Of a DNA stretch of 64,000 nucleotides, positions 57,333 through 63,543 are shown one piece after another; the first letter of the stretch is position 1; the number at the start of each line of letters is the position of its first letter. Source of the stretch: Crocinitomicaceae bacterium (lineage in GTDB: Bacteria; Bacteroidota; Bacteroidia; Flavobacteriales_D; Crocinitomicaceae); the NCBI GenBank assembly GCA_022447585.1, contig JAKVAR010000006.1, positions 124,001 to 188,000 on the forward strand. Reading direction: 5' to 3'. Position numbers and translations under genes: made by a program. The notes beneath the pieces are model-generated. The model had not been told where the DNA came from. It was given only the letters and a program-made list of their open reading frames with translations, and made no database searches.

Positions 57333-58487
57333 ATGCAACAGAAGAAAGGAATCGCAATTTTAGGCTCAACAGGTTCAATTGGAACCCAAGCGTTAGATGT
57401 TATTGAATCTCACCCAAAGCACTTTGATTTACAGGTAATAACAGCAAATCGTAGCGCTGAACTACTTATTGAACAAGCCATTAAATTCAAGCCTAATACT
57501 GTTGTCATAGTTGACGAAAGTAAATTTGAACAAGTAAAAGATGCACTTTGGGATCATGATATCCATGTTTACACCGGACAAGATGCACTTGCTCAAGTTG
57601 TTGAGTCGAATGAAATAAATACTGTTTTAACCGCCATGGTTGGTTATGCCGGTTTAAGACCTACACTGTCTGCGATTAGAGCAAAGAAAAACATTGCCTT
57701 AGCAAACAAAGAAACATTGGTTGTTGCCGGAGAGATTGTTACGAAAGAAGCCATGGAAAATGGAGTGAACATTTACCCTGTTGATTCCGAACATTCTGCC
57801 ATATTTCAATGTTTGGCAGGAGAATTCCACAATAAAATTGAAAAGATTTATCTTACCGCTTCTGGAGGGCCATTTAGAGGGTATACCAAAAAACAATTAA
57901 TGGAGGTCACTAAAGCACAAGCTTTAAAACATCCAAATTGGGAAATGGGAGCAAAGATCACTATAGACTCTGCAACTCTTATGAATAAAGGTTTGGAAGT
58001 TATTGAGGCAAAATGGTTATTCAACTTAAAACCAGAGCAAATTGATGTTATTGTTCACCCTCAGTCAATTATACACTCTATTGTTCAATTTGAAGATGGT
58101 AGTATGAAAGCGCAAATGGGTCTGCCTGACATGAAACTTCCAATTCAATATTCTTTCACTTACCCGGACAGGATTTCTTCTGAATTCCCTCGTTTTAATT
58201 TTTTAGATTACCCTCAACTCACCTTTGAAAAGCCAGATCAGAAAACATTCACAAATCTACAATTAGCTTTTGATGTTCTGAAAACAGGAGGAACTGCGGC
58301 ATGTACTTTAAACGCTGCAAACGAAGTGGCGGTGGAAGCATTTTTGAACGAGAAAATTACATTTTTAGATATCCCAAGAATAAATGCTGAAACATTAAAA
58401 CGAGTTGAGGTAATTCAAAATCCAACCATCGAAGATTACATCTCAACAGATGCTAAATCAAGAGAAGTCGCTACAGGTCTAATCTAA
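57333..58487 (+). CDS. dxr: 1-deoxy-D-xylulose-5-phosphate reductoisomerase
   Basis: IAILGSTGSIGTQALDVIE, LANKETLVVAGEIV, PVDSEHSAIFQCL, TASGGPFRGY. Start at MQQKKGIAIL rather than 57297. Confidence 0.96.
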   Translation: MQQKKGIAILGSTGSIGTQALDVIESHPKHFDLQVITANRSAELLIEQAIKFKPNTVVIVDESKFEQVKDALWDHDIHVYTGQDALAQVVESNEINTVLTAMVGYAGLRPTLSAIRAKKNIALANKETLVVAGEIVTKEAMENGVNIYPVDSEHSAIFQCLAGEFHNKIEKIYLTASGGPFRGYTKKQLMEVTKAQALKHPNWEMGAKITIDSATLMNKGLEVIEAKWLFNLKPEQIDVIVHPQSIIHSIVQFEDGSMKAQMGLPDMKLPIQYSFTYPDRISSEFPRFNFLDYPQLTFEKPDQKTFTNLQLAFDVLKTGGTAACTLNAANEVAVEAFLNEKITFLDIPRINAETLKRVEVIQNPTIEDYISTDAKSREVATGLI

Positions 58488-58526
58488 AAAAATTAGCATT
58501 ATAGTTCTAATTCAAAAATATTTGCA

Positions 58527-58534
58527 TAGATTTG
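58527..58534 (+). promoter_or_regulatory. -7 box (TAGATTTG) for the his operon
   Basis: Exact TAnnTTTG about 18 nt before the leader-peptide ATG. Confidence 0.5.
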
Positions 58535-58552
58535 AAGTCAAGAAAAAAAGAA

Positions 58553-58615
58553 ATGAATTTTACACAATTACATCATCATCATTTTCATACTGCCTCTCAG
58601 GTGTGTAGAAGATGA
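58553..58615 (+). CDS. his operon leader peptide MNFTQLHHHHFHTASQVCRR
   Basis: 20-codon ORF with HHHHFH run immediately upstream of a terminator and hisG. Confidence 0.88.
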   Translation: MNFTQLHHHHFHTASQVCRR

Positions 58616-58641
58616 GCTATGTAATTACATGAAATAATCTA

Positions 58642-58674
58642 AAACCCGTCTGAGTAAATCAGACGGGTTTTTTT
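58642..58674 (+). terminator. his operon attenuator terminator
   Basis: aaacccgtctga-gtaaa-tcagacgggttt perfect 12-bp stem followed by T tract, 36 nt before hisG. Confidence 0.92.
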
Positions 58675-58710
58675 ATTTCGTATTGGTTTACTCAGTCAAC
58701 AATTGTAAAT

Positions 58711-59568
58711 ATGAGTAAACTAAAAATCGCAATTCAAAAAAGCGGCAGACTAAATGAATATTCGCTAAAACTTCTTAAAAGTTGCGGTATTAGGGTGGAT
58801 AATGGTAAAGATCAGTTAAAAGTAACCGTTCCCAACTTCCCATTAGAAATACTTTACTTACGTAATTCAGATATCCCCCAATACCTGGAAGATGGAGTTG
58901 CAGACATTGCAATTGTAGGTGAAAACCTCCTGATTGAAAAGAACAAAGATGTGGAAATTTTACGCCCTTTAGGATTTTCAAAATGTAATGTATCACTTGC
59001 TGTTCCAAAAGAAGTGGAGACAAATTCCATTGAATACTTTAACGGAAAGAAAATTGCGACCTCTTATCCAAATACCCTTGCTTCTTTTTTAAGCGAAAAA
59101 AATATTGATGCAGAAATCCATGTCATTTCTGGATCCGTCGAAATTGCGCCGAATATTGGATTAGCAGATGGAGTTTGCGATATTGTTAGTACCGGAAGCA
59201 CACTTTTTAAAAATGGTTTAAGAGAAACCGAAGTGATTCTAAAATCACAAGCTGTTTTGGCTAAATCCAAAAGCCTATCCGATGACAAAAAAGCTGTTTT
59301 AGACAAGTTGTTATTTAGAATTCAAGCCGTAATCAAAGCCAAGAACACCAAGTATATCTTAATGAATGTTCCTAACGATAGAATTAAAGAAGTGAGCCGA
59401 ATTCTGCCTGTACTAAAAAGCCCCACTGTTTTACCTCTGGCTGAAGAAGGATGGAGTTCAGTTCACTCCGTAATTGATGAAGACCAATTCTGGGATGTCA
59501 TTGACGAACTAAAGCAAACTGGTGCAGAAGACATTTTAATAATTCCAATTGATAAAATCGTGCTATAA
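58711..59568 (+). CDS. hisG: ATP phosphoribosyltransferase
   Basis: LKIAIQKSGRLNEYSLKLLKSCGI, VADIAIVGENLL, ADGVCDIVSTGSTL. Confidence 0.95.
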   Translation: MSKLKIAIQKSGRLNEYSLKLLKSCGIRVDNGKDQLKVTVPNFPLEILYLRNSDIPQYLEDGVADIAIVGENLLIEKNKDVEILRPLGFSKCNVSLAVPKEVETNSIEYFNGKKIATSYPNTLASFLSEKNIDAEIHVISGSVEIAPNIGLADGVCDIVSTGSTLFKNGLRETEVILKSQAVLAKSKSLSDDKKAVLDKLLFRIQAVIKAKNTKYILMNVPNDRIKEVSRILPVLKSPTVLPLAEEGWSSVHSVIDEDQFWDVIDELKQTGAEDILIIPIDKIVL

Positions 59569-60857
59569 TGAAGATCTACAAATACCCAAACAATGATACG
59601 TGGAAAACACTATCAGAAAGACCTGTAATTAAACAAAATACATTAGATGAAATCGTTTCAGGTATTTTATACGAAGTTAAATCAAGTAAGGATAAAGCAA
59701 TTAAAAATCTAACGAAGCGCTTTGACGGAATAACAATTGAAAATCTCAAAGTATCACGTTCAGAAATAGAAAATGCTGAATCTCTAGTATGTACAGACTT
59801 GAAAAATGCCATTACAGTGGCAAAATCAAACATTGAAACTTTTCACCTAACTCAAAACACGAATGAGGCAATCTCGGAAACAATGGAGGGTATACAATGT
59901 TGGAGAAAAAATATTGGTATAGAAAAAGTAGGTTTATACATTCCTGGTGGTTCGGCGCCTTTATTTTCTACTGTTCTTATGCTCGGTATTCCAGCAATAA
60001 TTGCTGAGTGTAAAGAAATTGTATTATGTTCTCCACCTGATAAAAATGGAAAAATAAACCCTGCTATTCTTTACGCGGCCAACTTAATTGGAATTTCTAA
60101 GATATTTAAAGTTGGAGGAGCTCAGGCCATTGCTGCAATGGCCTATGGTACTGAGACCATTCCTCAAGTGTATAAAATATTCGGACCCGGAAATCAATTC
60201 GTTACGAAAGCAAAGGAGTTAGTACAACAATCTGGAATAGCCATCGATATGCCCGCAGGTCCAAGTGAAGTTCTAATCATAGCTGATAATACTGGCAACC
60301 CAGAGTTTATAGCAGCAGATTTACTTTCTCAAGCAGAACATGGAGCAGATAGTCAAGTCATTCTTATCTCAGACAATGAAGATATTATCAATCAAACAAG
60401 TAAAGCTCTAGAAAAACAACTCAGTGAATTACCTCGAAAAGAAATAGCAACAAAAGCATTAGAAAATAGTCGCTCAATTCTATTAGAAAACTTAGAGTCG
60501 TGTTTTGAATTTAGTAATACGTATGCTCCCGAACACCTCATTCTTGCCTCAGATAATGGCGAACAATTTATTAGTTCTATCACCAATGCTGGATCAGTAT
60601 TTATTGGTAATTATAGTTGTGAAAGCGCGGGTGATTACGCAAGTGGAACAAACCACACGCTACCTACAAATGGGTTTGCAAAAAACTATAGTGGTGTTTC
60701 TGTTGATAGTTTTGTAAAAAAAATCACTTTTCAAAAATTGACAGCTAAGGGAATTTCAAATATAGGACCAGCGATCGAAATTATGGCAGAAGCAGAAGAA
60801 TTGTATGCGCACAAGAACGCGGTAACGCTTCGTTTAAAATCACTACAAAATGTTTAA
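59568..60857 (+). CDS. hisD: Histidinol dehydrogenase
   Basis: GLYIPGGSAPLFSTVLMLGIPA, GGAQAIAAMAYGTETIP, GPGNQFVTKAKELV, DMPAGPSEVLIIAD. Confidence 0.96.
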   Translation: MKIYKYPNNDTWKTLSERPVIKQNTLDEIVSGILYEVKSSKDKAIKNLTKRFDGITIENLKVSRSEIENAESLVCTDLKNAITVAKSNIETFHLTQNTNEAISETMEGIQCWRKNIGIEKVGLYIPGGSAPLFSTVLMLGIPAIIAECKEIVLCSPPDKNGKINPAILYAANLIGISKIFKVGGAQAIAAMAYGTETIPQVYKIFGPGNQFVTKAKELVQQSGIAIDMPAGPSEVLIIADNTGNPEFIAADLLSQAEHGADSQVILISDNEDIINQTSKALEKQLSELPRKEIATKALENSRSILLENLESCFEFSNTYAPEHLILASDNGEQFISSITNAGSVFIGNYSCESAGDYASGTNHTLPTNGFAKNYSGVSVDSFVKKITFQKLTAKGISNIGPAIEIMAEAEELYAHKNAVTLRLKSLQNV

Positions 60858-61875
60858 TTTAAATTCAATTATTCGCCCAAATATTTTGGCGCTAAAAGCA
60901 TATTCGAGTGCAAGGGATGAATACAAAGGCTCGGAAGGAATATTTTTAGATGCGAATGAAAATCCTTATGGATCTTTAAATAGATATCCCGACCCTAATC
61001 AGCTCACTTTAAAATCAATGTTGGCAGAAAGGAGTGCCGTCAAAAAAGAAAATGTTTTCATTGGAAACGGCAGTGATGAATTAATTGATTTAGCTTTTAG
61101 AATTTTTTGTATCCCAGGAAAAGATAAAGCTTTTACATTCAGTCCTACGTATGGAATGTATAATGTTTCAGCAGCGATTAATGACGTTGAACTTATAGAA
61201 AGTCCTTTGGATTCAGAATTTCAAATTAATCTAAATTTAGCTCTTGCAACTATTAATAAGAATAAACCGAAGTTGATTTTCATTTGTTCTCCAAATAACC
61301 CAACAGGAAATACACTTCGAATTAGTGATATAGAATCAATTCTTAATTCAACGAACGGAATTGTCATAATTGATGAAGCATATATAGATTTTAGTAACTC
61401 CCCTTCATGGCTTACTCGTTTAAATAAATTTCCCAATCTAATTATACTCCAAACTTTTAGTAAAGCTCGAGGATTAGCATCTGCCCGTATTGGTATAGGT
61501 TACTCAACCCCTGAAATAATTGCATTATTAAATAAAGCTAAACCGCCATACAATGTAAGTCAATTGAATCAAAAAGCGGCAATTCAATCCTTGAATAATG
61601 AAGCACAATATCAAACGAATCTAAAACTTATAATAGCGGGTAAGAAGCAATTAGAATTAGCGTTCCGACAAATTCGTTCTATCAAAAAAATATATCCAAG
61701 TGAAGCAAACTTTATACTGATCAAAATTGACAATGCAGAGTTGGTTTATAACTCGCTTTGCAATATGAATATTATTACTCGAAACCGATCAGCAATAATA
61801 GCAAACACCTTGAGAATAAGCATTGGTAGCAAAGAAGAAAATGAAGAGCTCATTAACGCATTAAAAACACTTTAA
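60850..61875 (+). CDS. hisC: Histidinol-phosphate aminotransferase
   Basis: [47 protein letters not shown]. Confidence 0.95.
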
Positions 61876-61876
61876 C

Positions 61877-62968
61877 ATGAAAAAAGTACTATTTATAGAC
61901 AGAGACGGAACATTAGTTATAGAGCCTCCGTTAGATTATCAACTGGATAGTTTAGAGAAACTCCAATTCTACCCTGGAGTATTCCAGTGGTTGTCAAGAA
62001 TAGCAGTTGAACTCGATTTCGAATTAGTGATGGTTACCAATCAAGATGGTTTGGGAACTAGCTCTTTTCCCGAAGAAACTTTTTGGCCTGCACAAAACAA
62101 AATCATAGAAGCATTCAAAAATGAAGGGGTTTTGTTTTCAGAGATCCTAATTGACAAGAGTTTTCCGATAGACATGGCCCCTACTAGAAAACCAAGAACT
62201 GGATTGCTAAATAAATACATTTACGGTGACTACAATTTAGCTGATTCATACGTAATTGGAGACCGCCTTACGGATGTTGAGCTCGCAACAAACTTGAAAG
62301 CAAAAAGCATTTATATTAGCAGTGAAAATGAAGGTCAAGCAGATTTGGTAACTCAGAATTGGGCAGAAATTTATTCTTATTTAAAAAAAGAACCGAGAAA
62401 AGCTATAAACTCTAGAAACACAAATGAAACTCAAATTGAAATTCAGTTAAATCTGGATGGTTCTGGTTCAAGCGATATCAATACCGGCCTTGGATTCTTC
62501 GATCATATGTTAGAACAAATTTCGAAACATGGAAATATTGATTTACAGGTAAAGGTTCAAGGAGATTTGGATATTGATGAGCACCACACCATTGAAGATG
62601 TTGCCATAACATTAGGTGAAGTTTTTCTAAAAGCATTAGGAAGCAAAAAAGCAATTCAACGTTATGGTTTCCTTCTACCAATGGATGACTGTTTATCTCA
62701 AGTCGCCTTAGATTTTGGTGGAAGACCATGGTTAGTCTGGGATGTTGAATTCAAAAGAGAAATGGTTGGAGATATGCCTACAGAAATGTTCATGCACTTT
62801 TTTAAGTCTTTCAGCGATGCGTCAAAATGTAACTTGAACATCAAATCAGAAGGAGATAACGAACACCACAAAATAGAGTCCATTTTTAAAGCGTTTGCAA
62901 AAGCAATTCGAATGGCCGTTTCAAAAACAGAAAATTACGCCATTCCAAGCACAAAAGGAACATTATGA
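61877..62968 (+). CDS. hisB: Bifunctional histidinol-phosphatase/imidazoleglycerol-phosphate dehydratase
   Basis: HAD domain [14 protein letters not shown] plus IGPD domain [34 protein letters not shown]. Confidence 0.96.
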
Positions 62969-63543
62969 TAGCAATTATAGATTACAACGCAGGAAATGTG
63001 AAATCAGTTCAAAATGCCTTAACGAGACTTGGTTATGAAAGTAAGATTACCAATAACGTTAATGAAATTAAATCTGCGAAAAAAGTCATATTCCCTGGAG
63101 TTGGAGAAGCAAAATCGGCAATGCAATCTTTAAAAACGAACGGTATAGATAGACTAATTCCAACGCTCAAGCAGCCGGTATTAGGTATTTGTCTTGGTCA
63201 ACAATTAATGTGTAAATACAGTGAAGAAGGAAACACAAATTGTTTATCAATATTCGATGTACACGTAAAGCGTTTCCCACCCAAAGATGTAGTGCCTCAC
63301 ATGGGTTGGAACAACCTCTCAATTCTCAAAAATGAATTATTTGAAGATTGGGTAATTGGAAGTAATGTCTATTTCGTTCACAGCTATTATGTTGAGTTAT
63401 GCGAATACACTTCAGCTACGACAGATTACATCATTCCTTTTAGCGCAGCCTTGCAAAAAGACAATTTTTACGCAACTCAGTTTCACCCTGAAAAATCATC
63501 AAGTATCGGGTCTAAAATCCTTCAAAACTTTTTAAAATTATGA
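62965..63543 (+). CDS. hisH: Imidazole glycerol phosphate synthase subunit HisH
   Basis: [41 protein letters not shown]. Confidence 0.95.

Follow-up and report, generated by a model that had tools for sequence, protein, structure and literature searches.

A probable histidine leader-peptide attenuator ahead of hisG in Bacteroidota, with a conserved pairing segment downstream of its terminator

The window (the whole 64,000-nucleotide stretch of Crocinitomicaceae DNA analysed here) contains a his operon in which a promoter box, a short open reading frame rich in His codons and an intrinsic terminator are followed by genes in the order hisGDCBH. The features of this locus are as follows.

58527–58534, forward strand: promoter box of the Bacteroidota -7 type, TAGATTTG, with transcription probably starting near 58541
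58553–58615, forward strand: His leader peptide reading frame of 20 codons, MNFTQLHHHHFHTASQVCRR, with its stop codon at 58613–58615
58571–58588, forward strand: putative regulatory His codons, CAT CAT CAT CAT TTT CAT (His at codons 7–10 and 12)
58566–58626, forward strand: predicted 1:2 hairpin, outer arms 58566–58573 and 58619–58626, with segment A in its apical part
58596–58603, forward strand: segment A, CUCAGGUG, left strand of the antiterminator, inside the leader reading frame and covarying with T5
58641–58653, forward strand: T5, left arm of the terminator, AAAACCCGUCUGA, covarying with A, T3 and D
58654–58658, forward strand: terminator loop, GUAAA, covarying with D
58659–58674, forward strand: T3, right arm of the terminator (stem 58659–58671), and T tract (to 58674)
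58685–58697, forward strand: segment D, GGUUUACUCAGUC, downstream of the terminator and complementary to T5 plus the loop (58648–58660; 12 of 13 pairs in the window)
58711–59568, forward strand: hisG, ATP phosphoribosyltransferase, long form (Pfam HisG and HisG_C)
59568–63543, forward strand: hisD, hisC, bifunctional hisB (HAD and IGPD domains) and hisH, the remainder of the operon inside the window

The sequence-only reading of this region had described a -7 box, a 20-codon leader in which five of six consecutive codons are His, and a 12-bp terminator stem with a T tract ahead of hisG. The box and the leader lie where it placed them, and the terminator and T tract are present, with a stem of 13 bp (58641–58653 / 58659–58671) instead of 12 bp. 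Across all six frames of the 64-kb window, the leader is the only place with at least five His codons in six (about 0.02 expected). Upstream, dxr ends on the same strand at 58487, 39 nt ahead of the his promoter box, and no terminator was called between dxr and the his leader (window 58481–58526).

A protein search with HisG returned 80 related loci, with organism titles that include Winogradskyella, Ulvibacter, Tenacibaculum, Maribacter, Brumimicrobium, Reichenbachiella and Marinifilum, and with many others from metagenome-assembled genomes (MAGs) that may be loosely labelled. These hisG relatives make a place in the order Flavobacteriales plausible. Nearly all of the 80 loci carry a short reading frame with a His run, which ends about 85–125 nt upstream of hisG, and most have a terminator of the type CCCGTYTGAGTAAATCARACGGG after it, such that leader, terminator and the spacing between them are kept. 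The small number of loci that deviate lie on cut contigs, have imperfect stems that a simple scan missed or, in one case (L034), lack a leader. Two hallmarks of leader-peptide attenuators are thus found here, namely a short reading frame rich in the relevant codons upstream of the operon and an intrinsic terminator between that frame and hisG. The promoter box is likewise kept: 36 of 54 relatives have TAnnTTTG somewhere between -45 and -12 relative to the leader ATG (1.4 expected by shuffling), and 35 of the 54 have it at -29 to -24.

Covariation was analysed in an alignment of 54 leaders that were chosen partly for their architecture, including segment D. In this alignment, A (ACUCAGGCG, CUCAGGYG) and T5 (CGUCUGAGU) form an antiterminator helix of 8–9 bp in which 90.7% of cells are paired and 21 cells are changed on both sides (7.4 in shuffles), and sliding the two strands out of register lowers pairing to only 25.6–44.2%. 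For the terminator itself (T5:T3), 94.6% of cells are paired and 41 are changed on both sides. A coordinated switch of the antiterminator to AATAGGTG with CGCCTATT is found in a Flavobacteriales MAG (L061). The pairing of CTCAG (58596–58600) with CTGAG (58650–58654), pointed out from the window sequence, is therefore real in the comparative sense of having compensatory changes in relatives, where it grows to the 8–9 bp helix (CUCAGGUG, 58596–58603 / CGUCUGAG, 58647–58654). Within T5, CGUCUGAG (58647–58654) is the partner of A, and GUCUGA is the partner of D. The conserved C-terminal peptide motif 'CxQA(S/N/R)' is probably explained by its coding for segment A.

Folding predictions show how these pairings could compete. 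Free leader RNA of the window folds into the 1:2 hairpin (probability 1.00 without a ribosome), followed by the terminator. Masking RNA before 58592, to mimic a ribosome stalled at the His codons, gives A:T5 at 0.99 until the transcript is exposed to 58662, and masking RNA before 58628, to mimic one at the stop codon, gives the terminator (T5:T3 at 0.93–1.00 for free RNA or from 58628). Once T3 is fully exposed, T5:T3 wins at equilibrium in every state, the stalled ribosome included, so the termination decision would be kinetic, as in classic attenuators. Taken together, covariation and masked folding describe an antiterminator that excludes the terminator, becomes available when a ribosome sits on the regulatory codons and is hidden when the ribosome is at the stop codon. 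Mean stabilities are -18.0 kcal/mol for the terminator hairpin, -16.9 kcal/mol for T5:D and -12.1 kcal/mol for A:T5. The 1:2 region has a folding z-score below -2 in 44 of the 54 leaders (mean -3.1; window -4.4), and its outer arms are formed by the pairing of AATTACAT (58566–58573) with ATGTAATT (58619–58626), which the sequence-only reading had also proposed; the palindrome atgtaattacat noted with it is present in the window and is not conserved among relatives. RNAalifold recovered the terminator alone from the alignment, the 1:2 hairpin aligning poorly and not emerging from column covariation.

A covariance search of hisG upstream regions in relatives had been proposed as a check, and we ran a covariance model of the leader on 398 sampled genomes of the phylum, counting only matches directly upstream of hisG because some weaker matches were ordinary, leaderless terminators after coding genes (L131, L136, L137, L138). 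Such matches were found in 40 of 40 genomes of family f16 and 7 of 7 of family f15 that have hisG, families that are probably Flavobacteriaceae and Weeksellaceae. The upstream regions of hisG were also fetched from 80 genomes of 21 further families, and a short reading frame with at least four His in seven codons was present in 60 of these 80 regions, compared to 0.19% of shuffled sequences and none on the reverse strand. Among the 55 other-family regions with a called terminator, 32 have an A:T5-like pairing at p ≤ 0.05 with unrelated sequences (e.g., GGTAAGCC:GGCTTACC and GGCGCCGG:CCGGCGCT). All six sampled regions of family f13 (L172–L177) have a His leader, ending about 65–90 nt upstream of hisG, and in none of the six was a terminator found in the interval from leader to hisG, suggesting another output such as translational control. 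No His leader was seen in some of the sampled families (f29, f58, f25). Leader and terminator upstream of hisG, on the conservation of which the attenuator had been made to depend, thus recur in nearly all close loci and phylum-wide. As far as sequence can tell, these data indicate that His-codon leaders ahead of hisG are widespread in Bacteroidota. Initiation in this phylum is mostly without Shine-Dalgarno sequences, so co-transcriptional sensing by ribosomes would have to work there too.

Several other observations were made in the sampled genomes. About half of the genomes of the window's own genus (g1) have no hisG match, which suggests histidine auxotrophy or incomplete assemblies. The genome of the window has a second attenuator (L128:3003–3108; G000:C158, about 487002–487107), in which a leader with three Tyr codons, MMISTTYYYPELTCELDM, and a terminator precede a Biopterin_H gene (phenylalanine hydroxylase, the Tyr-making step); the corresponding position encodes MQMHKTYYYYRIHQGELDM and MMSTNTYYTYAYFPNRK in two relatives (L223, L224). 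This Tyr leader resembles the His leader in having a leader peptide, an antiterminator-like segment and a terminator, and is matched by the same covariance model, whereas its codons and target gene differ and no D was seen in it by eye. In another genome (G094), whose hisG likewise follows a His leader (L133), an Ile-rich leader, MYKTNSHIIISIIIIVIIGIIDG, and a terminator (L134) stand before a branched-chain aminotransferase-like gene followed by an ilvD-like gene.

Between the terminator and hisG, most of the close relatives carry a further conserved segment, D, with 13 nt of complementarity to T5 plus the loop (GUCUGAGUAAAUC). In the 54-leader alignment, 94.4% of T5+loop:D cells are paired and 36 are changed on both sides (10.7 in shuffles), 8 of the 13 pairs have changes on both sides, none of 500 shuffles reaches the score, and slides drop pairing to 20–43%. 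D was also detected at p ≤ 0.01 in 39 of 42 newly fetched analysable loci, a set of relatives and covariance-model matches in sampled genomes that includes the window's own locus (at least one other record, L083, is apparently the same as L003). The loop positions are free of the constraint of the terminator stem, and 367 of 375 loop:D pairs are standard (98%), compared to a maximum of 334 in 2000 shuffles. In this count D of the newly fetched loci is whichever 13-mer beyond the terminator pairs best, a choice that favours pairing, and the shuffles ignore relatedness. Loop and D change together between types (GUAAA/UUUAC, GUACA/UGUAC, AUAAA/UUUAU and GACAA/UUGUU), and they do so more than once; one of these switches separates the Brumimicrobium loci L022 and L029. 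Where the terminator stem is imperfect (L008, L020, L022, L030, L060), D keeps 11–13 of its 13 pairs. Its end lies 13–17 nt upstream of the hisG ATG in 45 of the 54 leaders, over a range of T-to-D distances of 11–39 nt, and 24–34 nt ahead of the ATG in many loci of genus g18. D is a new element that was absent from the sequence-only reading. It also poses a testable anomaly, since its conservation and covariation match those of the terminator, yet it is made too late for termination.

The comparative evidence (i.e., conservation, compensatory changes in A:T5, and folding with a masked leader) supports the proposal that an attenuator operates in this lineage, and we consider that the his operon in the window is very probably controlled by ribosome-mediated transcription attenuation. 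With little charged His-tRNA available, a ribosome would stall at the His codons (58571–58588) and unwind the 1:2 hairpin, freeing A (58596–58603) to pair with T5 (58647–58654) ahead of the emergence of T3, and RNA polymerase would continue into hisGDCBH. With ample His-tRNA, the ribosome would reach the stop codon (58613–58615) and mask A, so that T5:T3 could form and transcription would stop at the T tract; if the leader were untranslated, A would be held by the 1:2 hairpin and termination would be expected as well. There is next to no chance that the structure is a mere transcription terminator of dxr beside a chance His run: the position of dxr directly upstream, and the lack of another called terminator before the leader, would fit such a role, whereas the separate conserved promoter after dxr, the conserved leader, the antiterminator covariation and the His leaders of many families contradict it, and conservation already refutes it. 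Control by a T-box riboswitch or another Rfam-listed element is equally hard to credit, since every listed Rfam match is below threshold, including the weak one to RF00514 His_leader (32 bits versus a gathering score of 49), and the Rfam search of the window element gave no match to the T-box covariance model up to E = 1.

The role of D is less clear-cut. Because it is transcribed only after the T tract, D should be unable to join the termination decision, and its action would fall after that point: in read-through RNA, D can pair with T5 plus the loop, and would thereby influence translation of the hisG mRNA or its fate. We tentatively propose that part of the Bacteroidota has such a second control layer, in which D captures T5 plus the loop in read-through RNA (or, in trans, in terminated RNA) and adjusts hisG expression after the decision. 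If true, this would be an attenuator with three competing partners for the terminator arm, versus the usual two. One form that this could take, possible though short of an even chance, is a cis element that alters hisG translation or mRNA stability by pairing with the terminator arm and loop after read-through. The tight D-to-ATG spacing in the first set of leaders, held despite the variable T-to-D distance, suggested a link with hisG translation, and the pairing kept with imperfect terminator stems agrees with it, whereas the longer g18 distances and a predicted openness of the hisG start region that is independent of D speak against it; the g18 distances leave the role between cis and trans. 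The trans form, rather unlikely in our estimate, is that terminated leader RNA, which would accumulate under ample histidine, uses its exposed loop to bind D on full-length his transcripts, reducing hisG expression. The near-complete loop:D complementarity and the coordinated loop changes are consistent with this; that the identical pairing is possible in cis speaks against it. It is improbable that D is a DNA-level site (for protein binding or a promoter) that only by chance repeats the terminator: D is indeed an inverted repeat of T5 at the DNA level, although the coordinated loop and stem changes and the tolerated G:U pairs fit RNA pairing. Given the g18 loci, we rejected a role of D as a steric block set at constant spacing from the start codon. 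We also rejected an explanation by thermodynamic folding, given that T5:T3 beats D:T5 at equilibrium in the read-through RNA of most sequences and that start-region openness is unchanged. An H-type pseudoknot with the loop alone, considered by hand, was set aside because pairing of the stem part is also conserved, and D is not a general feature of Bacteroidota his leaders, as 0 of the 55 other-family hisG upstream regions with a called terminator have a D-like segment.

His attenuation by ribosome stalling is classic in Enterobacteria. The literature that we found places his attenuators in Proteobacteria and Firmicutes, and histidine T-boxes in some Firmicutes and Actinobacteria, although a 2010 survey by Lopatovskaya et al. 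(cited in PMC4833913) may include Bacteroidota predictions. Another attenuator survey of 2010 lists leader-peptide systems from Proteobacteria, Actinobacteria and, newly, Firmicutes only (PMC2965389), and a 2022 study of His leader-peptide attenuators covers Gram-positive bacteria (PMC9413887). In a 2021 paper on his genes in the Bacteroidota superphylum, E. coli and Salmonella are the only organisms for which a term search turned up attenuation (PMC8305728). The Firmicutes attenuators (PMC9413887; PMC2965389) are similar to the window element in having a short peptide with 3–5 His codons and alternative hairpins, and differ in phylum and in that the passages describing them mention no D. Closest to our case is a 2021 transcriptome paper on Flavobacterium psychrophilum, which reports that hisG is preceded by a structured 5' element with no Rfam match and with conservation in further genera of the Flavobacteriaceae, as well as clues to leader-peptide attenuation for amino-acid operons generally (PMC9723704). 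This element and the one in the window are almost certainly the same; the passages of that paper on hisG give no leader peptide, antiterminator, D or wider distribution. Compared to enterobacterial hisL (RF00514), the window element shares a leader with His codons, a predicted pause or protector hairpin, an antiterminator and a terminator before hisG, a layout that aligns at 32 bits, whereas its score is below gathering, its sequence is unrelated and its promoter is of the Bacteroidota type. Its antiterminator strand lies inside the last codons of the leader, and it has the extra post-terminator D. Judged from these features of sequence and layout, the element belongs in kind to the ribosome-mediated his attenuators and not to the Rfam His_leader family, and D makes it a new variant.
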